A DNA stretch of 64,000 nucleotides from Planctomycetota bacterium (GTDB lineage Bacteria > Planctomycetota > Planctomycetia > Pirellulales > UBA7805): assembly GCA_003389215.1 (NCBI GenBank), contig QQVP01000110.1, forward strand, positions 1 to 64,000. Direction: 5' to 3'. Below are positions 11,632-63,937 of this stretch, piece by piece. Positions within the stretch are counted from its first letter, which is position 1, and each line of letters starts with the position of its first letter. Under the pieces are notes generated by a model that was given only the letters and a program-made list of their open reading frames with translations, had not been told where the DNA came from and searched no databases. A program made the translations under genes and the position numbers.

Positions 11632-11736
11632 TATTGAGCCCTGCGCAGCCAATGAACCAGGCCGACCAGCGGGAGGCCGGCATTCCAGCTATCACCGCCG
11701 CGGCGAAGGGCTCATTAACAACGCAGCCATCAATAA
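11632..11736 (+). repeat. Dispersed ~105-bp repeat, copy 1
   Basis: TATTGAGCCCTGCGCAGCCAATGAACCAGGCCGACC...CTCATTAACAACGCAGCCATCAATAA; near-identical to four other sites in the window. Confidence 0.95.
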
Positions 11737-49844: not shown

Positions 49845-50261
49845 TTGTTTCAAGAGTGGGTGGTCGCCCCCTTGATGCTCGCCGAGGTGGCTACCGCGCT
49901 GGCCCTGCTCGTCGTGACGCCCCCGCAGGTGAGTACCGATCTGGTGTGGACGGGGCTGGCATCGACGGGGCTGGCATCGACGGGGCTGGCATCGACGGGG
50001 CTGGCATGGACGGGGCTGGCATGGACGGGGCTGGCATGGATGGGGCTGGCATGGACGGGGGCGGGTCTGGCCGTCGCGACCTGGCTGATGACGCTCTTGG
50101 TCGCCATGCCCCAGCACGCCCGCCTGGCCCGCGGCTACGATCCCCAGATACAGCGCAACCTGGTGCGTGGCAACTGGTACCGTACCGCGGCTTGGACGCT
50201 GCGAGGGCTTCTGGTGCTGACGATGTTGGGTCAGACCTTGTCAATTTCGGGGTCACGGTGA
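49845..50261 (+). CDS. Small membrane protein with tandem-repeat-expanded segment
   Basis: TTG start; 'LAEVATALALLVV...LAVATWLMTLLVAMPQHARLARGYDPQIQRNLVRGNWYRTAAWTLRGLLVLTMLG'. Confidence 0.65.
   Translation: MFQEWVVAPLMLAEVATALALLVVTPPQVSTDLVWTGLASTGLASTGLASTGLAWTGLAWTGLAWMGLAWTGAGLAVATWLMTLLVAMPQHARLARGYDPQIQRNLVRGNWYRTAAWTLRGLLVLTMLGQTLSISGSR
49941..50060 (+). repeat. 15-bp tandem repeat, 8 units
   Basis: CTGGCATSGACGGGG x8 (first unit CTGGTGTGGACGGGG; one unit GATGGGG), in frame, encoding repeated LA(S/W)TG. Confidence 0.95.
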
Positions 50262-51285: not shown

Positions 51286-52815
51286 CTAGCTCCATTGCTG
51301 TCGCAGTTCTTGGGCTGTCTTTCGGATCTCGCGCAGCTCGTCGGCACTCTTACGAGTGAGATTCTTCAATTGCATGGACATGCGGTTGTTGCCGCGGAGG
51401 CGCTTTTCGTGGCGGGCCAGGAAATCCCAGTAGAGCGTGGTAAAGGGGCAGGCCCGCTCGCCGACCGCCAGGGCGGGATCGAACTGGCAACCGCGACAGT
51501 AGTTGCTCATGCGATCGATGTACTTGCCCGTGGCACAATAGGGCTTGGAGGCCATGACGCCCTCGTCCGCGAATTGCGACATCCCGAGCGAATTGGGCAG
51601 CTCGACCCATTCGACCGCATCGACGTAGATGGCCAGGTACCACTGGTGAACCTCGCGAGGATCGACCCCCAGCAGCAGGCAGAAGAGACCCGTCACCATC
51701 AGGCGCTGAATGTGGTGCGCGTAGCCGTGATCGAGCGTCTGCGTGATCGCCTGTCGCAGACAGTTCATCTCCGTATCGCCCGTCCAGAAGAACTCCGGCA
51801 ACGGCACCTTGGCCCGCAGCGTGTTGCGGTCGAGGTAACCCGGCATGTAGAGCCAGTAGATGCCGCGAACATACTCGCGCCAGCCGAGCACCTGGCGAAT
51901 GAATCCCTCGACGGCGTTGAGCGGGGCGCGGCCCGCACGATAGGCCGCCTCGGCCGCCGCCACGACGTCCCGCGGGTCAAGCAACTTGAGATTCAGTGCC
52001 GCGGAAATGCGGGCGTGGAACAGGTAGGGTTCGTCGGTCCACATCGCATCCTGATACTCGCCGAACTGCGGCAGGCGACGCTCGATAAAGTCGGCGAGGG
52101 CCGCGGTCGCCTGACGCGGCGTCACCGGCCAATCAAATTGCTCCAGGCGACCGGGGTGCTTGGCGAATTTTCGCTCGACGAGATCGAGGACTTCCCGTGT
52201 GGTTGCGTCGGGACGGAACCGCTTGACGCGTGGCAGCTCGCCGGGGCCCGCTCGCGGAAAGCTCCCGCGGTTTTCCGCATCGTAGTTCCACTTACCGCCG
52301 ACCGGCGCGTCGCCATCCATCAGCACCCCGGTCTGGCGGCGTAGCTCGCGATAGTAGTACTCCAGACGCAACTGCTTCCGACCGGAGGCGTGCTCGGCAA
52401 ACTGGGCCGGCGTGCTGAAGAAATGACGGTCGTCGCGTACTTCCAGCGGGACCTCAACGGCACGAGCCGTCTCGCGAAGCTGCTCGAGCACACGCCACTC
52501 ACCCGGCTGGACGACGATCAGCCGCTGGGGAGCGTGGTTTCGCACCGCGGCCTGCAGTGCGGCGGCCAGCGTCTTGCGATTGCCACGATCGTCGAGCTGC
52601 CGATAGTGGACGACGATGTTGCGCTTGCGTAGGGCGTCGCGGAAATGGCGCATCGCGGAGAGAAACAGGGCGATGCGAGCCTTGTGGCTCCAGACATGGG
52701 TCGACTCTTCGGCCACCTCGGCCATCCAAACCGCGTCCGACTTCTTGTCGAAATCGTCAAACGCCGCGGAGTTGGCATTGAGCTGATCGCCGAGCACCAG
52801 CACGAGATTACGCAT
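51286..52815 (-). CDS. Cryptochrome/photolyase-related protein, probable FeS-BCP/DPRP type
   Basis: 'LVLVLGDQLNANSAAFDDFDKKSDAVWMAEVAEESTHVWSHKARIALFLSAMRHF', 'GWREYVRGIYWLYMPGYLDRN', four-Cys 'CATGKYIDRMSNYCRGCQFDPALAVGERAC'. Confidence 0.92.
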   Translation of the reverse strand: MRNLVLVLGDQLNANSAAFDDFDKKSDAVWMAEVAEESTHVWSHKARIALFLSAMRHFRDALRKRNIVVHYRQLDDRGNRKTLAAALQAAVRNHAPQRLIVVQPGEWRVLEQLRETARAVEVPLEVRDDRHFFSTPAQFAEHASGRKQLRLEYYYRELRRQTGVLMDGDAPVGGKWNYDAENRGSFPRAGPGELPRVKRFRPDATTREVLDLVERKFAKHPGRLEQFDWPVTPRQATAALADFIERRLPQFGEYQDAMWTDEPYLFHARISAALNLKLLDPRDVVAAAEAAYRAGRAPLNAVEGFIRQVLGWREYVRGIYWLYMPGYLDRNTLRAKVPLPEFFWTGDTEMNCLRQAITQTLDHGYAHHIQRLMVTGLFCLLLGVDPREVHQWYLAIYVDAVEWVELPNSLGMSQFADEGVMASKPYCATGKYIDRMSNYCRGCQFDPALAVGERACPFTTLYWDFLARHEKRLRGNNRMSMQLKNLTRKSADELREIRKTAQELRQQWS

Positions 52816-52881: not shown

Positions 52882-53391
52882 TCAGGCCGTCCAGTTCTTG
52901 CGGTCGAACGCCAGGTAGTTGAGCAGGATCGGCAGCTCGTAGAGCGAAAGCAGAATGAACAGCGTAAACCCCTTCGGGTATTTTTCGGCGAACTCCGACA
53001 TGTCGCGGTGCTTCGTATAGAACTTGTGCGTCCAGTTCTGGAACTGGTGACACAACACGATCAACACCAGGTACACCCACGGATACAACCACCACGGCCC
53101 GAGCGGAACGACCTTGAACAGGGCGAGGATCAGCAGGATCGAGATTACGTTGACCAAGAACACCCGCACCGGAATATTAAAGGCCAGCACCACGAAATAG
53201 ACAGCCAAAATGCCCAGCACGATCCAGTCGGGATTGACGGGCAAGAAGTCCGCCAGCCAATAGGCCAGCCCAAACAGACCAAAATAGGTACCGGCCACGG
53301 CTATCAGGTGGGTCAGGTTGAGGCCGAACTGGGAATGGCGACAAAGGTGGCGACGATAGATCTCGTCGAAGTCGATATTGAGGATGTTCAT
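52882..53391 (-). CDS. Polytopic membrane protein (distantly DUF962/Mpo1-like topology, uncertain)
   Basis: 'FDEIYRRHLCRHSQFGLNLTHLIAVAGTYFGLFGLAYW...CHQFQNWTHKFYTKHRDMSEF'; start overlaps upstream stop by 4 bp. Confidence 0.75.
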   Translation of the reverse strand: MNILNIDFDEIYRRHLCRHSQFGLNLTHLIAVAGTYFGLFGLAYWLADFLPVNPDWIVLGILAVYFVVLAFNIPVRVFLVNVISILLILALFKVVPLGPWWLYPWVYLVLIVLCHQFQNWTHKFYTKHRDMSEFAEKYPKGFTLFILLSLYELPILLNYLAFDRKNWTA

Positions 53392-55562
53392 GGCGTCGTC
53401 TCCGATTGCAAACGCGGCCTCCGCGGCGCGACGGCGCGATTTGCGCGCTGCCGACCGTATGGTAGCCGAGACTGAAGGGCCGCCCCTACCCCCATCGCCA
53501 ACGCACGGGCCCCCATCGCCAACAAGCGGGAGAGCGGGATCCGCAGCACTTCGGCGATGGTCGATGTGATCGCGTCGATTTCGTGATCGGTGATGGTAAG
53601 CGGCGGCGTCAGCTTGAAGATGTGCGGCTCGTACTGGCAGAAGCCCATCAAGAGCGGATCGGTGCGGTGTCGCGTCATGGCCAGCAGGTAGAGGCGGTGT
53701 GCTAATTTGCGCAGTCGCGCGCTCCGCCACGAGTCGTATTCAAGCTCGATGCCGATCAGCATGCCAAACACCCGGACGTCGCGCACCGAGCGACAGCCAC
53801 GCAACTTCGCCGCCAACTGCTCGGCGAGGAGCCGACCCGCATGGGCGACCCGCTGCGAAAGCTGCAGATCCTGGGCCCGCTCGATAACATTGGTCGCGGT
53901 GAGGTAGCCCATCCGGTAACCGTGGGCCGCTTCCCAGGCTTTGAGCAGCGGACAATCGAGTTCGGCCATGCGCGTGCGGATCGCCTCGTTGTAGAGCGTT
54001 ACGGCGAAGGGGAACATCATGTCGGACGTGCCCTTGCCGATCGTCATCAAGTCGGGCGTGATGTCGAGATGCCGCGCCCGCACGAACGGCCCGGTGCGGA
54101 ACATGCCGGTCTGCACCTCGTCACAGAAGAGGTAATAGCCGTACTTTTGCCGCGCGGCGTCGAGAAACTCGAGCACGGCGCGGGGGATCTCGCGCACGCC
54201 ACCGACCCCCTGCACGAGCTCCGCCTGAACGACGGCCACGGGATGCTGCTTGAGGGCGGCGGTCAGCTGCTCGACCGCGTCCGCGGCAAAGGGATCGACG
54301 TAAACCACGTGGGGATAGAGCGGCGCGAGCCCCGACTTGTAATAGGGCCGCGCCGTGCCGGTCAGGGCGAAGAGCGTCTTGCCACCAAACCCTCCGCCGA
54401 GGGCGAGCACAGTCTGCTTGGGCCAGGCGGCCGCCAGGGCCAGCTTCAGCGCGCTCTCGACAGCCGACGCCCCACTGACCGCCGGCGCGAAATGCTCGAT
54501 GCCGGTCAGTTCGTGCAGGTGCCGGCCCAGACGACCGCGAATGTCGGGCTCGTCGGCCAGTTGTTCGATTTCCTCGACGTACGATTCGGGGTTGTGGCCG
54601 CGCACGCTGCAGGCCACGCCCGCCACGCCGTCGAAGATGCGTCGCTCGCCGATCTGCACGTGGTGACCGCGAGCTTGAATCTCCTCCCGATCGAAGCCAA
54701 GCGCGGCGGTGACCTTCCGCAGCGAAGGGCTGTAGTAGCGGGCAAACTGCTCGGCGGCCTGCCCGCGGTCTTCGGCGATCGCCCGTAGGGGGGCCGCGTG
54801 CTCGGCGCGAAACTCGGCGTCGGCCGCTTCCAGACAGCGGACCAAGTGCCGGCTGGAGATTGTGTTCGGCTGAAACGTCGTGGAATGAAACGTCGTCATG
54901 CCGGCCCGCTGCCAGTGATCGTAGTGCTCGCGACGCGCGGCGAAGGCGGCGAAGGGCACCTCGCGGTCGACGAACGACTCGTCGAACACGACGACGTCGG
55001 GCGACGACGGGGCAGGCCACTGCAAACGGCCTGAGCGCAAGTCGCCAAGACACGCGCGCGAGACCCCCAAGATCGTCACGGGCCGGTGGCGGCTCAGCAA
55101 TTCGCCCAGCGGCTCGGCCACTGCGGCGAGCGCGGCGGGCACCACCGCGACAAAGCCGAGCGGCTGCTCGTCGTGCGCGGCCGCGGCCACCTCGCCGGCG
55201 TGGCGAGCGACGGTCAGCTCGGGAATGAACTCGATCTGGCCGTCGGGAAGTTCGAGTTTGGCGAAGTGCGGCAGCAGCCCGTCAGGATCGATCAGCAAGC
55301 CGCGCGTCGCGGCCGACTCAAGATTTCGCACGTAGCGGGCCAACTTGGTGGCCCCGCTAAACGCCTCTTCCAGGCCGTTGGCCAGGAAGATCTGCCGATC
55401 GACCGCCGGCTCGCCCGGAGCGTCCTCGGGCCATGTCGTGCTCACATAACGCGAGAGGCAGAAGCAGCACTGCGCAACGTGCGGGTTGATGTAGACCCGA
55501 AACAGATTGGGAATCTGTCCGTCGATGATCTCCTGGCAGGTTTCCAGCACGGACGACGACAA
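53388..55562 (-). CDS. Large class-III aminotransferase
   Basis: C-terminal part 'FAPAVSGASAVESALKLALAAAWPKQTVLALGGGFGGKT', 'GYYLFCDEVQTGMFRTGPFVRARHLDITPDLMTIGKGTSDMMFPFAVTLYNE'; extra ~300-aa N-terminal region. Confidence 0.88.
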   Translation of the reverse strand: MSSSVLETCQEIIDGQIPNLFRVYINPHVAQCCFCLSRYVSTTWPEDAPGEPAVDRQIFLANGLEEAFSGATKLARYVRNLESAATRGLLIDPDGLLPHFAKLELPDGQIEFIPELTVARHAGEVAAAAHDEQPLGFVAVVPAALAAVAEPLGELLSRHRPVTILGVSRACLGDLRSGRLQWPAPSSPDVVVFDESFVDREVPFAAFAARREHYDHWQRAGMTTFHSTTFQPNTISSRHLVRCLEAADAEFRAEHAAPLRAIAEDRGQAAEQFARYYSPSLRKVTAALGFDREEIQARGHHVQIGERRIFDGVAGVACSVRGHNPESYVEEIEQLADEPDIRGRLGRHLHELTGIEHFAPAVSGASAVESALKLALAAAWPKQTVLALGGGFGGKTLFALTGTARPYYKSGLAPLYPHVVYVDPFAADAVEQLTAALKQHPVAVVQAELVQGVGGVREIPRAVLEFLDAARQKYGYYLFCDEVQTGMFRTGPFVRARHLDITPDLMTIGKGTSDMMFPFAVTLYNEAIRTRMAELDCPLLKAWEAAHGYRMGYLTATNVIERAQDLQLSQRVAHAGRLLAEQLAAKLRGCRSVRDVRVFGMLIGIELEYDSWRSARLRKLAHRLYLLAMTRHRTDPLLMGFCQYEPHIFKLTPPLTITDHEIDAITSTIAEVLRIPLSRLLAMGARALAMGVGAALQSRLPYGRQRANRAVAPRRPRLQSETTP

Positions 55563-55568
55563 GACACT

Positions 55569-57431
55569 CTAGCCCGCTAACATGCTGTGCTTCCCCACGT
55601 TCGACTGCACGTGCGAGAAGTTGTTGCGAAGGTACTCTTGGAACACGCTACTATGCTTGCGCCGCATGAACAAGTCGGCCGAGATGCAGTCGTGTTTCCC
55701 GAAGGGCGAATGCGGCATGCCGTCCTGCTTGACGTAACGCAGCTGAATCTTGGAAATCGGCAGCTCCGCGTGCGTTTCCCAGAAGCGGACAAACTCCTCT
55801 TTCGTGAAAAACAACTCGACGTGGTAGCCGAGTTCCCGCACCATGGCGTGAAACAGGTACGAGCTGATCGGGTTTTCTTCGAGCCGGTCCCAGAGGCGGC
55901 CAATGGCGTCCTTGGGCATCTCCAGCGCCCCGGCACCGCCGCCTTCGCCATCGCCCTGGTCGTAATACTTGTAAACGTCGATCGTTTCGCTGGCGGCCTG
56001 CGATTTGCGGATCTCGATGTTCGACGGTTCCCGATCGGCAAACACCTCTAGCACGGCCTCGCCGCTGGTGGCCGAAAGCGTCTCTTGCTTGACGAAGTAC
56101 CGCGACTTCTCCTTGGCCCGCACGTAGAGCCGCAGCAGCAACGCCCCGCTGGCCGGGTTGTAGAGATAGCGCCCGAACGCCTCTTCGCTGCGAGAGGTGG
56201 CCACCAGGCGATCTTCGACCGGGTCGTAGAGCAGCACCCTTTCGATCGTATCGGCGACCGTCGTGACCTCGCTGCCCGAGCCGTGGACCGGCACGAAGAA
56301 GCACGTGCCCATACTGATGTACGAGTAGTTGGGGACGACGAACAGTTCTTTGTCGTCGGCGCGAAGCGCGTCGATCGTCGTCCGCATCAGCGTGCCTGCG
56401 TCGAGCTTGACGCGATAGCCGTCGATGCGCGGCGGACCGGCCGTCTTGATCGTGGAAACAACCGTGCGACCGGGAAACGTCTGGCCGAAGTGTACCACGC
56501 CGGTGTTGTAGCCCACGACCTTCACATCGCGATAGCCATAGCAGTTGTACAGGGACAGTAGCTCCGAGACGCTCTGCGGGTAAAGCGTATCGAACCAGCA
56601 CGACCGCAGTCGCGACGACCAACGACGCAGCGGACCGACAAAGAGCGCGACGAGCTGCCCGACGAGCAGGAAGCTGAGCACGGTTGCCAGGCCACGCAGT
56701 CCCGCCGAGAGCGGGCCGCCGGGGTTGTGCTCACCAAGCACTTCGCGCCAGGGTCGGTTGCGGCCCAGCAGGGTCAATTCGCGGCAGCTTGCGCGGCGCA
56801 TCGTCCCGGCTTCCGCCGCTTCGGTGGCCACCATCGCCCAAAGGTCCGACTCGTTGAGGAACGTGCTGGAGATGCGTCTCGGCACCAAGGGGGCCAGCCA
56901 GCTTAGCGATCGCAGGCGACAGGCCAGCCGTGTGCCGTCTCCGAGCAGGTGCCCCGCCCGCAGAAAGGTGATCGGGACCCCGTCGAGGCGTCGGCGGACC
57001 TCCGCTTCGTCACGAATCGTCCGGGCGTCGGCGAAGTGGCGGAGGAACGTCCCCACCAGGAGCACCCGAGTGCCGGGCGACTCTTTCGCCCGTCGGGCAA
57101 TGTCGTCGACCAGCGCCGTTTGAGCAGCGTCATGCTTTGCGGCGAGCAGCAACACGATGGCAGCGACCGAAGCGTCCGCATCGCCGGCGTTGGCAACTTC
57201 GTCCCACCGGCAGGGTTGCAGCGACGGATGCGAGCCTGGGCGCTTTTCTGCGGCCGCCGCCGACACCGGAAGCGACTGGCCAAGGGCGGCCGCTAGCCGA
57301 TCGACAACCCGGGCGACAAGCCGAGCATCGACCGCGGCGACAGGCAGCAGAGCAGGGGGGCTTTCGGCAGAGGGCTCGGCAGCGGAGCCAGACTGGGCGT
57401 CGGGGTAGGCAAGATTACCTTGGGTCTTCAT
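55569..57431 (-). CDS. Fused NAD(P)-binding-like/FAD-linked oxidase-like protein
   Basis: C-terminal PCMH-like 'VVSTIKTAGPPRIDGYRVKLDAGTLMRTTIDALRADDKELFVVPNYSYISMGTCFFVPVHGSGSEVTTVADTIERVLLYDP'; N-terminal epimerase-like 'SPGTRVLLVGTFLRHFADARTIRDEAEVRRRLDGVPITFLRAGHLLGDGTR'. Confidence 0.7.
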   Translation of the reverse strand: MKTQGNLAYPDAQSGSAAEPSAESPPALLPVAAVDARLVARVVDRLAAALGQSLPVSAAAAEKRPGSHPSLQPCRWDEVANAGDADASVAAIVLLLAAKHDAAQTALVDDIARRAKESPGTRVLLVGTFLRHFADARTIRDEAEVRRRLDGVPITFLRAGHLLGDGTRLACRLRSLSWLAPLVPRRISSTFLNESDLWAMVATEAAEAGTMRRASCRELTLLGRNRPWREVLGEHNPGGPLSAGLRGLATVLSFLLVGQLVALFVGPLRRWSSRLRSCWFDTLYPQSVSELLSLYNCYGYRDVKVVGYNTGVVHFGQTFPGRTVVSTIKTAGPPRIDGYRVKLDAGTLMRTTIDALRADDKELFVVPNYSYISMGTCFFVPVHGSGSEVTTVADTIERVLLYDPVEDRLVATSRSEEAFGRYLYNPASGALLLRLYVRAKEKSRYFVKQETLSATSGEAVLEVFADREPSNIEIRKSQAASETIDVYKYYDQGDGEGGGAGALEMPKDAIGRLWDRLEENPISSYLFHAMVRELGYHVELFFTKEEFVRFWETHAELPISKIQLRYVKQDGMPHSPFGKHDCISADLFMRRKHSSVFQEYLRNNFSHVQSNVGKHSMLAG

Positions 57432-58329
57432 CCCGATGTCCGTTCGTCATCGAAACCCCATTGGCGAACACGCCGCCACCATACTGCACCTTATCCTCGG
57501 CGGCAATGAGCGGCGTCAGCGCCTCGTGCGGCGAGGTGAGCAATATGACGGTCGAGCCGAGTTCGAAGGTGCCGATCCACTCGCCGCGTTCGACCGGTCG
57601 TGGATCCTTGAAGCGGCGCCGCTGCACCAGTCGCGAGCGACGCTTCAGGCCGGTGCTGAAGGGATGCGTGATGTTGCCAACTCCCCAGCCGGCGACCATC
57701 ACGACCGCCATCGGGCCGAAGTTGGTCGAGAAACGCATCACAACCCGTTCGTTGAGCGTGAAGACCGGATACTCTTCGCGCTGGTAGGGGGGATGCACCA
57801 GCAGACGACGGCCTGGCACGTGGCATATCTCTTCCAGCATTCCGTCTTGCGGCGCGAAGACGCGGTGACAGTCGGCCGGCGAGAGAAAGAAGATGGCGTA
57901 ACGACCGCCGCGGAAGGGCGTCTCATCGGTGTCGGCCAGTAACGAGCCGACTGAGTACTTGGTTCCCTTGACCGTCAGCTCCGCCTGCTGATCGACGACG
58001 CCCACGTCTTGGACCGTGCCGTCGCAGGGACTGACAAAGTGGTCGGCCTCTTCGGGAAGCGGCCGCAGCTCGGGCCGAATGCCGCGCGTGAACAGGGCGT
58101 TGAACGATCGATACGACTCGAGCGGATGTTCCAGGTCGTCTTCGACCAGCGCCGGGTACTTCTTTCCGTAGATCGTGCGGTACAGCTTCAGGCGAAGCCG
58201 CTGCGAAGGAATCGGCACGCGCGAGAGCTTCACCCCCATCTTCATCAGCCACATATTGAACAGGCCGCCATGGATCGAACTGGCCTGGCGGACCTGTTCG
58301 ATGCGGGCATTCAACTTTCCTGTGGGCAT
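57415..58329 (-). CDS. psd: Phosphatidylserine decarboxylase
   Basis: 'YRSFNALFTRGIRPELRPLPEEADHFVSPCDGTVQDVG', 'AIFFLSPADCHRVFAP', 'WIGTFELGSTVILL' with the LGST self-cleavage motif; likely start MPTGKLNARIEQ. Confidence 0.93.
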   Translation of the reverse strand: MPTGKLNARIEQVRQASSIHGGLFNMWLMKMGVKLSRVPIPSQRLRLKLYRTIYGKKYPALVEDDLEHPLESYRSFNALFTRGIRPELRPLPEEADHFVSPCDGTVQDVGVVDQQAELTVKGTKYSVGSLLADTDETPFRGGRYAIFFLSPADCHRVFAPQDGMLEEICHVPGRRLLVHPPYQREEYPVFTLNERVVMRFSTNFGPMAVVMVAGWGVGNITHPFSTGLKRRSRLVQRRRFKDPRPVERGEWIGTFELGSTVILLTSPHEALTPLIAAEDKVQYGGGVFANGVSMTNGHRDEDPR

Positions 58330-58360
58330 GAGGGCAACCGCGTTCTCGCCGTGTGGCTTG

Positions 58361-59860
58361 TTAGATTTCTTGAGTGAGGATGTCCGCGACGCGAAGCGCC
58401 ATGGCACTAATCGTCAACGAGGGACCAACTCCCAATGAAGTCGGCAAAATGCTGCCGTCGACGACAAATAAATCTCTCTGGCCGAACATTCGACAATCGG
58501 CGTCGACGACGGCCTCGTCCGCCCGGCGACCGAAACGGAGCGTGCCGCACTGGTGGGCCACGTGCTCCTGCGAAGGGAGCGCGTTACCTGCACAGTATAC
58601 CGCCCCGCCGCGGCGCAGAATACGCTTCATCTGACGCCCCAAGGCCCGTCCGCGGTCGCGGTCATATTCGCTGAATTGGTGGCTCAGGCAAATGCGACCT
58701 CCCTCACCCAGGGTGACGCGATTCGCCGGATTCGGCAAGTCCTCGACGATGCCGACCAGAGGCAACATCCGCTTGCGCAGCGACGCCAGCAGCCAGCGCG
58801 GCAACAGGCGACCTCCGCTCTTGGCCATCATCAGCGGACCCGGCGCCGGCAGCGACTGAACGAGGCCCATTTTGTGGGGGCAGTCGTCGGTGCCAAAGTA
58901 ATAATCGGCAAAGCCAACCTGCTTTACGAAAGTTTCGTCAGCCCCCGTCGATGCCAGGTAGAAACCGACGCACAGCGGCGAGTAGTGCATCATGTAGTGA
59001 CGACCGATTAGCGGATGGACGAAACCCGAGCGGAGCAAAATGGCGGGCGAGCCGATGGCTCCCGCGGACAGGACGTAACGCCGCGCGCGATAGAGCGACA
59101 ACTCGCCCGTCGAGCGCTCGCGCACATGGACCCCTCCGAGCACCTCGCTCGTGCCCGATTCGAATCGCTCCACCTCACAGTTGGTGAGCAAGGTGAGTTG
59201 GCTCGTTGCGGCCTGTGCTTCATCGACAAGTTGCGCGGCCGAGCGGCGCGCGCCGGTCGGACAAGGAAAGCCCGCGCAGTTGTCGCAGCGCAGACAAAGG
59301 CTGGCGTCAATCGACAAGGGCAATTGAAAGGGATGGAGTCCCTGCCTGCGATTGGCGTCGATCAGGCGGCGATTGATGTCCGCCAGCGGCAGGATCTCAT
59401 CTTCGTTGCTCGCGGTCGGCGGCGCGAGGGGGGCGAAGTCGTCGCCACCCCTGGCGGCGACGTGATAGAGTCGTTCGGCCTGGTCGTAGTACTCGGCCAA
59501 TTCGTCGTAGCCGAGAGGCCAGTCCCAAAGGGCCCGGTCGATTCGTTCGCCGTACGACTTGCCGGGGTGGAAATCGTCGACGCTGGGACGGATCATCGCG
59601 CCCCCGTAGAGCGAGGTGCCACCGCCCAGGACGCCGCCCATCAGCAGCCGTCGCGACTCGCCGTTCAGTTCGATGGGACGATCGTCATAGGGCTGCTTGT
59701 CGAAGAGCGTCCGCTGCTCATCGTGCACCCGCTCGTCGATTTGCGTGCGACGACCGCGCTCGATGACCAACACTCGCTTGCCCCGCGTGGCACAGGCAGA
59801 GGCCAGGGTGCCACCGCCCGCGCCGCTGCCGATGACAATCAGGTCGAAGTCATAGTCCAT
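58361..59860 (-). CDS. GMC family oxidoreductase (long-chain-alcohol-oxidase-like)
   Basis: 'DFDLIVIGSGAGGGTLASACATRGKRVLVIERG', 'LLMGGVLGGGTSLYGGAMIRP', 'LSAGAIGSPAILLRSG', 'VAHQCGTLRFGRRADEAVVDADCRMFGQRDLFVVDGSILPTSLGVGPSLTISAMALRVAD'. Confidence 0.93.
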   Translation of the reverse strand: MDYDFDLIVIGSGAGGGTLASACATRGKRVLVIERGRRTQIDERVHDEQRTLFDKQPYDDRPIELNGESRRLLMGGVLGGGTSLYGGAMIRPSVDDFHPGKSYGERIDRALWDWPLGYDELAEYYDQAERLYHVAARGGDDFAPLAPPTASNEDEILPLADINRRLIDANRRQGLHPFQLPLSIDASLCLRCDNCAGFPCPTGARRSAAQLVDEAQAATSQLTLLTNCEVERFESGTSEVLGGVHVRERSTGELSLYRARRYVLSAGAIGSPAILLRSGFVHPLIGRHYMMHYSPLCVGFYLASTGADETFVKQVGFADYYFGTDDCPHKMGLVQSLPAPGPLMMAKSGGRLLPRWLLASLRKRMLPLVGIVEDLPNPANRVTLGEGGRICLSHQFSEYDRDRGRALGRQMKRILRRGGAVYCAGNALPSQEHVAHQCGTLRFGRRADEAVVDADCRMFGQRDLFVVDGSILPTSLGVGPSLTISAMALRVADILTQEI

Positions 59861-60153: not shown

Positions 60154-60214
60154 GACCTGCGAGTGCGCAAGACCGGTGAGTCCCCACAACCGGCGAGCGA
60201 TCGACGGCGACTGG

Positions 60215-60262
60215 TACGTCGGCACCCTGGTACGCCGGCACCCTGGTACGCCGGCACCCTGG
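60215..60262 (+). repeat. 16-bp tandem repeat x3
   Basis: TACGTCGGCACCCTGG TACGCCGGCACCCTGG TACGCCGGCACCCTGG. Confidence 0.9.
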
Positions 60263-60756: not shown

Positions 60757-61575
60757 ATGAACACGGCCGTCATCCAACGTCAGTACGACGAACTCATTGC
60801 CGAACGCTACGATCAGGATCCTCACGGCCTGACGGGCGCTTCGCTCGACCGCGCCATCGCTCAGATCGAGCAGGCGGGTCTCCTGTCTTCTGAACTCTCC
60901 CCGCTGCGGATGCTCGATTTGGGCATGGGAACGGGTCTGTTTTGCGAAAAGCTGCGATTCAGTTCCGACCGCGAAATCGCCCCGTACGGCATCGACATCT
61001 CGGCCAAGATGATCGAGGTCGCCCAGCAGCGGCTGCCCGATCTGATTGCCGAGACCGACGACGCGGCCAACGTCGACCGCCAATTCGTCGGCGAGACGTT
61101 CGACCTGCTCTGCACTCACTTCATCACCGGGTTTGTGCCGATCGACCATCTGGCTCCGCGGATCCACGACAAATTGGAGGACGGCGGCTATTGGTCCTTT
61201 GTCGGCGGCACCAGCGCGGCGTTTCCGGGTCTGCAGAAGCGGGCCAACTCGCGCGAGGTGCGCTGGCTCTTCGGGGCGGGCAAGCTCGACGTCTCCGAAG
61301 CGACCTCCACCCCGGCCGACGAGCACGAGGTGTCGCAGACGATGCTCGCCCACGGCTTTGAGCTCTGTACCTGCGAGACGTTCCGGCCGCAGCTCGATTT
61401 TCCCAAGTTCGCCGACTTCATGCGGTTCGGCTACGAGGGAGGCTGGCTCACGCCGTTCATCGAGGAGATCGGCTTGCACAAATGTGGCCCCGTCACTCGG
61501 GCACTGATCAACACTTTGTTCTTCCCAATGCGCGACCACCACGATATCGTGATCGCGCTGGCGCGGAAGGTTTGA
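60757..61575 (+). CDS. Class I SAM-dependent methyltransferase
   Basis: 'LRMLDLGMGTGLFCEKLRFSSDREIAPYGIDISAKMIEVAQQRLPD'. Confidence 0.88.
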   Translation: MNTAVIQRQYDELIAERYDQDPHGLTGASLDRAIAQIEQAGLLSSELSPLRMLDLGMGTGLFCEKLRFSSDREIAPYGIDISAKMIEVAQQRLPDLIAETDDAANVDRQFVGETFDLLCTHFITGFVPIDHLAPRIHDKLEDGGYWSFVGGTSAAFPGLQKRANSREVRWLFGAGKLDVSEATSTPADEHEVSQTMLAHGFELCTCETFRPQLDFPKFADFMRFGYEGGWLTPFIEEIGLHKCGPVTRALINTLFFPMRDHHDIVIALARKV

Positions 61576-61713: not shown

Positions 61714-62967
61714 ATGCGGATCGCGATTATCGCGGAAGTCTTCTTGCCCAAGGTCGATGGGGTCGTCGTCCGCACGATGAACCTGATCGAGCACTTGCAG
61801 CGGTCGGGCGACGAAGTGCTGGTCGTTTGCCCCGAGGCCGAGGGACGTCGTGACTGCTCGGTGCCGGTAGTCGAGTTTCGCAGCTTCCCGTTTCCGACCT
61901 ATCCCGAATATCGTATCGGGCTGCCGGATCAGCGCCTGGTAACCGCAGTGCGCGATTTTGCGCCCGACGTCGTGCATTACATCAATCCGTTCGCCTTCGG
62001 ATTTCGCTGCTACGACCGGCTCCGTAAGGGCGGTCTCGACCTGCCCAACGTGTTCTCGTTTCACACCCTCTACGGTGAGTTCGTGAAGCGCTACGGGGTG
62101 CTCAAGCCACTTTCCAGAATGCTCTGGTGGCTGACGCGCGAGTATCACAACTGCGCCGATCTGAATCTGACCGTCTCGGCCATCATGCGGGAAGAACTGA
62201 TTCGCCGCGGCTTCGAACGCGTCGAGTGCTGGCCGCCCGCGGTCGACAGTGCGCTCTTCCAGCCCGAGCGCGAGAACGACGAGATGCGTCGCCGGATCGC
62301 CGGCGGCGAGTGCGAGAAGCCGCTGTTGCTCACCGTGTCGCGGCTGGCGCCCGAAAAGAACGTCGCGTTCCTGGCCGACGTCCTCGAACAGGCGCCCGGC
62401 GCGCGGCTCGCCATCATTGGCGACGGTCCACAGCGGGAGGAGTTGGAGCGACGCTTCGCCAACGTCGACGCGCACTTCGTGGGCTACCTGCAAGGTGCCG
62501 AGTTGGCGGCGGCCTACGCCTCGGCCGATGCGTTTATTTATGCTTCCGAAACGGAGACGATGGGGAACGTGGTGCTCGAGGCGATGGCCTCGGGCTTGCC
62601 GGTCATCGCCCCCGCCGCCGGAGGCATCCCCAGCCTGGTCGTCCACGGCGAGACCGGCCTGCTCTTTGCGCCGGGCCAGCTGGACGAGGCGGTCGGCCAC
62701 GTGCAGGCGGTGCTGACCGACGAAGCCTTGCGCGAGCGACTCGGCGCCTCGGCGCGACAAACCGTGCAAGCGTGGGACTGGAACAATTCCGTGGAAACGG
62801 TGCGACAGTCGTATCTCAATTCGATCGAGCAACATGGCCGGCGCAACGGTCGCCGCGTGCCGGGCCATCATCTGGCGCGGGCGACGGTCGGCGGACTGGT
62901 GATGGCGTTTCGGGCCGTGCCGCGACGCCGCAAGAAGGCAAATCCGATTTCCACCACGCCTGCTTAG
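61714..62967 (+). CDS. Glycosyltransferase family 4 (MgtA-like)
   Basis: 'MRIAIIAEVFLPKVDGVVVRTMNLIEHLQRSGDEVLVVCPE', 'LLTVSRLAPEKNVAFLADVLEQAPGARLAIIGDGPQREELERRF', 'ETMGNVVLEAMASGLPVIAPAAGGIPSLVVHGETGLLF'. Confidence 0.95.
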   Translation: MRIAIIAEVFLPKVDGVVVRTMNLIEHLQRSGDEVLVVCPEAEGRRDCSVPVVEFRSFPFPTYPEYRIGLPDQRLVTAVRDFAPDVVHYINPFAFGFRCYDRLRKGGLDLPNVFSFHTLYGEFVKRYGVLKPLSRMLWWLTREYHNCADLNLTVSAIMREELIRRGFERVECWPPAVDSALFQPERENDEMRRRIAGGECEKPLLLTVSRLAPEKNVAFLADVLEQAPGARLAIIGDGPQREELERRFANVDAHFVGYLQGAELAAAYASADAFIYASETETMGNVVLEAMASGLPVIAPAAGGIPSLVVHGETGLLFAPGQLDEAVGHVQAVLTDEALRERLGASARQTVQAWDWNNSVETVRQSYLNSIEQHGRRNGRRVPGHHLARATVGGLVMAFRAVPRRRKKANPISTTPA

Positions 62968-63028: not shown

Positions 63029-63937
63029 ATGACAACGCATCAGGGAGGAAACGAAGCTATGCCGGGATGCCACGACAGTTCGGAACGCCAGGTGCGTTCG
63101 ATCTTCGTCAGCGACACCCATCTGGGCTGTAAACACGCGCGGGCCGATGCCTTGCTCGACTTTCTGCGCAACCACCGCGCGGACACGCTGTACCTGGTTG
63201 GCGACATCATCGATGGCTGGGCCCTGCGGCGGAAATGGCACTGGCGGCCGATTTACGACGCCATCATTCAACGCCTGCTCGAGATGCGCGCCGAGGGCAC
63301 GCGACTTCGCTACGCACCCGGCAATCACGACGCCTTCCTGCGGCAGTATCTGATCGATATGGGCGTGGTCGACGTCGCCGATCAATTCATCCACACGACG
63401 CCGGCGGGCCAGCGATTCCTGGTCTTGCACGGCGATCGCTTCGACAAGTTCGAACAGTACGCCACCTGGTTCACGATGATGACGGCGGCCACCTACAACG
63501 TGATGTTGTCGATGGACTACTGGCTGCATCGACTCACGTTCCGTCGCACTCAGCGCAACGTGGTCTGCGGCGTGGTGAAGACCAAAGCCAAGAAGCTGGT
63601 GATGCACTACAGCGAGTTCGAGCGCCAACTAATCGACAACGCCGAGAAGCACGAGTGTCACGGAGTTATCTGCGGCCACATTCACAACCCGAAGATCAGC
63701 GAGTTGGCCGGCATCACCTATGTGAACACCGGTGACTGGTTGGAAAACTGCACGGGGCTCGTGGAACGGGAAGACGGCGTGCTGGAAATCGTCAATGCCG
63801 ACGGAAGCGTACGCCAGGCCTCGCAGCCGTGGGGACCGATGTCGGTCGAGGGTGAATTCAACGGTGACGAACCGCAGCGCGAAGTCGCCGAAGAAGACGT
63901 CGACGTGTCGGAGCCCGCCGAGGTGGCCGTCGCCTGA
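63029..63937 (+). CDS. UDP-2,3-diacylglucosamine diphosphatase-like (LpxH-type) metallophosphoesterase
   Basis: 'RSIFVSDTHLGCKHARADALLDFLRNHRADTLYLVGDIIDGWALRRKWHW', 'LRYAPGNHDAFLRQYL', 'LVLHGDRFDKFEQYATW', 'GVICGHIHNPKI'. Confidence 0.92.
   Translation: MTTHQGGNEAMPGCHDSSERQVRSIFVSDTHLGCKHARADALLDFLRNHRADTLYLVGDIIDGWALRRKWHWRPIYDAIIQRLLEMRAEGTRLRYAPGNHDAFLRQYLIDMGVVDVADQFIHTTPAGQRFLVLHGDRFDKFEQYATWFTMMTAATYNVMLSMDYWLHRLTFRRTQRNVVCGVVKTKAKKLVMHYSEFERQLIDNAEKHECHGVICGHIHNPKISELAGITYVNTGDWLENCTGLVEREDGVLEIVNADGSVRQASQPWGPMSVEGEFNGDEPQREVAEEDVDVSEPAEVAVA

Follow-up and report, generated by a model that had tools for sequence, protein, structure and literature searches.

A conserved planctomycete gene cluster unites a phosphatidylserine decarboxylase homologue with flavin oxidases, an aminotransferase and a methyltransferase: a possible lipid head-group pathway

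Organization of the gene cluster

The window analysed in this study is a stretch of 64,000 nt from a Planctomycetota bacterium (assembly GCA_003389215.1, contig QQVP01000110.1, positions 1 to 64,000); the planctomycete-type source genome comprises 5.5 Mb and is 92.9% complete. On the minus strand, from 59860 to 52882, the window carries an operon of five co-oriented genes encoding, in this order, a GMC oxidase, a protein of the phosphatidylserine decarboxylase (PSD) family, a 620-aa protein, a 724-aa class III aminotransferase and a small polytopic membrane protein. We found this set, together with a methyltransferase gene, to be conserved among planctomycetes, and genomes whose only PSD is that of the cluster have no recognisable phosphatidylserine synthase (PssA). 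A search of open-licence papers yielded no earlier description of the cluster.

The intergenic distances are +31, −17, +6 and −4 nt in gene order, followed by +66 nt to a photolyase-related gene. An initial annotation, made from the sequence alone, had given the five reading frames, their coordinates and all of these distances, and every one was borne out. Its family assignments were likewise confirmed by profile matches: PF05199 and PF00732 for the GMC-type FAD oxidoreductase (499 aa, 58361..59860), PF02666 and TIGR00163 for the PSD-family protein (304 aa, 57415..58329), PF00202 for the aminotransferase (53388..55562) and PF04244 for the photolyase-related protein. The 620-aa protein is encoded at 55569..57431 and the membrane protein (169 aa) at 52882..53391. 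The PSD gene starts with the ATG at 58329, its open frame reaching 58407; the start of the aminotransferase gene, a TTG at 55562, is uncertain. For the membrane protein the start is the ATG within the ATGA overlap (53391), and the 282-aa frame of the open reading frame list begins too early.

Conservation of the cluster among planctomycetes

Distribution was studied in 299 genomes of the host class and in a wider scan of 85,488 species, which was based on two peptide patterns and could therefore miss very distant relatives in other phyla. The 620-aa protein is present in 24 of the 299 genomes. Wherever the contig is long enough, the five genes stand in identical order (20 fetched regions and 33 loci or contigs of the wider scan), and neighbouring genes usually overlap or lie less than 100 nt apart. 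Given the same order with similarly small gaps in every complete locus, the operon arrangement is more than chance. The initial annotation had named missing co-occurrence as a finding that would speak against a multi-gene unit; conserved co-occurrence is what we observed. Among the carriers with a species name are Singulisphaera acidiphila, Aquisphaera insulae and Paludisphaera soli. Myxococcota, which had been proposed for comparison too, were not supported as carriers: the scan yielded planctomycete-type contigs only. Two contigs with the cluster (L054 and L066) come from bins labelled Trichodesmium and Candidatus Kuenenia; they are probably mis-binned planctomycete DNA.

A sixth gene belongs to the core of the cluster and had been overlooked before. 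It encodes a SAM-dependent methyltransferase (272 aa, 60757..61575, plus strand; Methyltransf_25/11) and is divergent from the operon. The 24 of 299 genomes with a methyltransferase match at E ≤ 1e-30 are exactly those that carry the 620-aa protein; the methyltransferase gene adjoins the cluster in nearly all loci, with varying orientation.

The cluster PSD and the absence of a recognisable PssA

In the standard bacterial route to phosphatidylethanolamine, serine is transferred onto CDP-diacylglycerol and the product is then decarboxylated. A PSD needs phosphatidylserine, which is normally supplied by PssA. We scored PssA, defined by a strong TIGR00473 match, in the same 299 genomes. A second, unlinked PSD is found in nine of the 24 cluster genomes and in none of the other 15, the source genome included. 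PssA was present in 0 of these 15 genomes, PLD-type PssA not being searched for, and in all of the nine genomes with a second PSD (9/9), at least four of which have it beside that second PSD. Among genomes without the cluster, 123 of 127 with a PSD contain PssA; for genomes without a PSD the count is 2 of 148. Fisher's test gives p = 6e-17 for this pattern, not corrected for relatedness, a value that overstates independence because the 15 genomes fall in three families: f21 (with Singulisphaera), f22 (genus g92) and f1 (the source genome). The PssA-less pattern thus occurs in three separate lineages. A second, housekeeping psd had been named in the initial annotation as a possible objection to the proposed unit; the source genome has none, though nine cluster genomes do.

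Weak PssA matches were examined individually. In the source genome and in G161 these CDP-alcohol transferases are PgsA, and phosphatidylglycerol is therefore available; those of G190, G077 and G210 are phosphatidylcholine-synthase-like.

The cluster PSD matches PF02666 with 168 bits (2.5e-49) and passes the curated PSD model TIGR00163 (158.2 bits, cut-off 111.75). All cluster PSDs keep the LGST pyruvoyl processing site. They read DCHR[VI][FY] (DCHRVF in the window) where the E. coli enzyme has DYHRVH, and they form one clade (17/17, support 0.91). These data bear on the explanation that the enzyme is a plain phosphatidylethanolamine-forming PSD, fed by an unrecognised phosphatidylserine synthase, for example of the PLD type, with the other genes forming a separate pathway in a shared operon. 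In its favour, several genomes have no other PSD, and our search did not extend to PLD-type PssA. Against it, the second place in the gene order is always held by the PSD, also in genomes with a further PSD gene, and the clade follows the cluster. We consider such an arrangement improbable.

Two further observations concern PSD in this class. About half of the sampled genomes (148 of 299) lack a PSD, and almost all of them lack PssA as well; many planctomycetes sampled from the host class therefore probably form no phosphatidylethanolamine by the standard route. Some genomes (loci L096, L097, L104 and L108) contain a third type of PSD-family protein, marked by the motifs DYHRFH and GGSS; in G137 it occurs without PssA.

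Flavoenzymes, aminotransferase and membrane protein

Orthologues of the GMC oxidase are 48–61% identical across all loci. The best solved relative is glucose dehydrogenase (8hdd), and 6'''-hydroxyparomomycin C oxidase (7dve) was also matched. GMC oxidases and class III aminotransferases are a known alcohol-to-amine pair in aminoglycoside synthesis. The cluster resembles this neomycin-type pair (7dve and its partner) in having both enzyme classes side by side, for conversion of alcohol via carbonyl to amine. It differs in its additional VAO oxidase, PSD, methyltransferase and membrane protein and in the extra degenerate domain of its aminotransferase (see below); no aminoglycoside genes were seen.

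The 620-aa protein gave no match in Pfam or NCBIfam. Its AF2 model (mean pLDDT 82.8) consists of an N-terminal degenerate Rossmann/SDR-like domain (residues ∼75–250) and a FAD domain of the VAO/aldonolactone-oxidase type (∼280–620). Foldseek searches with this model returned alditol oxidase (2vfs, E = 1.3e-15), DprE1 (4ff6, E = 1.3e-12) and L-galactono-lactone dehydrogenase, and FAD_binding_4 was matched in 8 of 18 orthologues. Judged by the model, the C-terminal part has a VAO/aldonolactone-oxidase-type fold, with FAD binding and oxidase activity predicted. The alignment of the N-terminal domain contains no GxxGxxG nucleotide-binding motif, and this domain is therefore probably no active dehydrogenase. 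Of the earlier description as NAD(P)-binding-like plus FAD-oxidase-like, the oxidase part and the Rossmann-like fold hold; the nucleotide-binding motif is missing. We also considered an epimerase of the DprE1/DprE2 type. The C-terminal fold is shared with DprE1 and alditol oxidase, and an SDR-like domain accompanies it as DprE2 does DprE1; in contrast to that system, the SDR-like domain is fused, degenerate and without the nucleotide motif, and sequence identity amounts to 10–17%.

As annotated initially, the 724-aa protein (AF2 model, pLDDT 88.1) contains a class III aminotransferase domain (PF00202, 2.8e-43); in this C-terminal domain D481, Q484 and the PLP lysine K510 are invariant in 26 sequences. 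A second domain had escaped notice: residues 1–270 match class III aminotransferases in hhalign (probability 93.4%, E = 2.5e-7; reversed control 0.1%), with E195 at the position of the PLP lysine. Comparison of this N-terminal domain with the protein's own C-terminal domain failed, whereas that with the family alignment succeeded. By these sequence comparisons the protein is a tandem aminotransferase, one half of which is degenerate and lysine-less. Among the 299 genomes, the N-terminal domain was found in the 24 that carry the 620-aa protein, plus one weak match.

The closest solved relative of the C-terminal domain by sequence, also among the top folds, is the prodigiosin transaminase PigE (4ppm). 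PigE likewise carries an extra N-terminal part; in the 724-aa protein, unlike PigE, this part is a degenerate aminotransferase, and no prodigiosin genes were seen. That this relative belongs to prodigiosin synthesis raises the question of whether the cluster encodes a soluble small-molecule (secondary metabolite) pathway, in which the PSD homologue would serve as an amino-acid decarboxylase. PSD-family enzymes can indeed act on free amino acids, as PsiD does. Among the conserved members no synthase or carrier gene was seen, the small membrane protein is obligatory, and the set persists through several orders instead of being scattered within genera, all of which argues against a soluble pathway; we regard it as quite unlikely.

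The membrane protein has the invariant motifs RHLxRH...N..H and Q...H in its alignment, and a search of PDB sequences gave no match. Five of 20 orthologues match PF06127 weakly, the best of them with E = 0.0017; for the window protein E is 0.036, under the cut-off. The motif is suggestive of an Mpo1/DUF962 dioxygenase, but the similarity to Mpo1-like (DUF962) proteins is faint: profile comparison in hhalign gave a probability of 5.7%.

A possible head-group pathway

We take the lack of PssA, together with the constant presence of two flavin oxidases, an aminotransferase and a methyltransferase beside the PSD, to suggest that an amino acid is made on the lipid. We tentatively propose that the cluster is a membrane-lipid head-group pathway which generates the amino acid on which its own PSD acts, without a phosphatidylserine synthase, a proposal that we hold to be possible though short of probable. 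On a lipid-linked head group of the glycerol type, the GMC oxidase and the 620-aa protein would oxidise hydroxyls to give an alpha-keto acid, which the aminotransferase would convert to an alpha-amino acid; decarboxylation by the cluster PSD would yield an amine and the methyltransferase would N-methylate it. Each of these steps is chemically ordinary for its enzyme class, and the 620-aa oxidase resembles polyol and sugar oxidases such as alditol oxidase. In its most economical version the scheme would lead from phosphatidylglycerol via phosphatidylglycerate, phosphatidyl-hydroxypyruvate and phosphatidylserine to phosphatidylethanolamine and its N-methylated forms; its logic would be that of serine biosynthesis, with a lipid as carrier. 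This specific version, with oxidation, transamination, decarboxylation and methylation in place on the phosphatidylglycerol head group and PssA replaced at least three times in planctomycetes, we judge to be rather unlikely as it stands.

The initial annotation had suggested an amino-containing lipid or other membrane-associated product. An amino-containing lipid is still the likely product and the unit is conserved; the inclusion of the photolyase gene was not upheld, and both the absence of PssA and the methyltransferase had gone unnoticed. Like the PssA/PSD route, the cluster uses a pyruvoyl decarboxylase of the PSD family and would be expected to end in an amine head group. It differs from that route in its distinct PSD clade, in the oxidases and aminotransferase that take the place of PssA, and in the lack of a recognisable PssA in genomes that rely on the cluster PSD. 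If the proposal is true, cells are able to assemble an amino head group on a lipid already formed, without a serine-adding enzyme.

Several points weigh against the proposal. PigE acts on an aldehyde rather than a keto acid. In all cluster PSDs the HRxH motif known from E. coli has lost its second histidine, although this motif is not strictly diagnostic, since short-type PSDs lack it as well. Nine genomes retain both the cluster and PssA, and the search covered neither PssA of the PLD (E. coli) type nor unknown phosphatidylserine synthases. The membrane protein, whatever its role may be, has no step in the scheme; we infer the target of the methyltransferase, as we do the substrate, the product, the activities and the order of the enzymes. 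For S. acidiphila the major lipids reported are trimethylornithine lipid, phosphatidylcholine, phosphatidylglycerol and phosphatidic acid, besides four unassigned spots (PMC12493201); that phosphatidylethanolamine is not among them is the strongest counter-evidence. Nor can the phosphatidylcholine serve as proof of a phosphatidylethanolamine route, an argument we rejected because the genome of S. acidiphila carries a phosphatidylcholine-synthase-like gene; this lipid need not stem from the cluster and may come from choline.

The lack of phosphatidylethanolamine among these major lipids and the four unassigned ones make a different, undescribed amino lipid a close rival. Here the GMC oxidase and aminotransferase would turn a lipid alcohol into an amine, as in an amino-sugar or long-chain amine lipid, and the PSD homologue would decarboxylate a lipid amino acid other than phosphatidylserine. 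The separate PSD clade with its altered motif, the ordinary PssA and second PSD kept by nine cluster genomes and the unassigned lipids of S. acidiphila (PMC12493201) are in line with such a product. So is the presence in many loci of neighbouring genes for a GT4 glycosyltransferase and an LpxH/PlcP-like protein, a combination known from glycolipid synthesis under phosphate limitation (PMC4796936). On the other side, the cluster PSD passes the curated PSD model, and since no more than about half of the cluster genomes have GT4, a glycolipid is not a general product. We regard a different amino lipid as a serious but doubtful alternative; if it is the product, a widespread phylum has a new class of membrane lipids that awaits identification. 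Either outcome is decidable in S. acidiphila, a genetically tractable carrier of the cluster for which a knock-out method has been published (PMC12493201).

A planctomycete amino-lipid pathway with a methyltransferase is already known from the same organism, the OlsH-OlsG-OlsI operon (Sinac_1599-1601); it consists of different genes, without PSD, oxidases or aminotransferase (PMC12493201). Ornithine-lipid synthesis was rejected as a role of the cluster, as its genes form this separate operon.

Neighbouring genes and other features of the window

Downstream of the methyltransferase gene, on the plus strand, lie the genes of the GT4 glycosyltransferase (61714..62967) and of the LpxH/PlcP-like metallophosphoesterase (63029..63937; PF00149, with the NCBIfam LpxH-like match under the cut-off). 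At E < 1e-140, roughly half of the 24 cluster genomes contain GT4, as does one other genome, and the LpxH/PlcP-like gene adjoins the cluster in many loci. As in PlcP-Agt lipid remodelling, the two adjoin each other near the cluster; unlike the core genes, they are not at all cluster loci and are best called accessory. The photolyase-related protein (DPRP, 51286..52815, minus strand), which lies downstream of the operon and had been considered a possible part of its transcript, had no match in the 20 and 33 other loci searched. We therefore rejected it as a cluster member.

An Rfam scan of 48–64 kb gave no match, and promoter and terminator scans were uninformative. A dispersed repeat of ∼106 nt occurs in near-identical form at 11636 (+), 22736 (+), 37326 (−), 60125 (−) and 60460 (−), the last two copies forming a direct repeat between the GMC and methyltransferase genes. 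A 16-nt tandem repeat (3.2 copies, 60211–60262) lies upstream of the GMC gene in intergenic sequence, and a 15-nt tandem repeat (7.6 copies, 49947–50060) lies just 3′ of a sigma-factor-like open reading frame.

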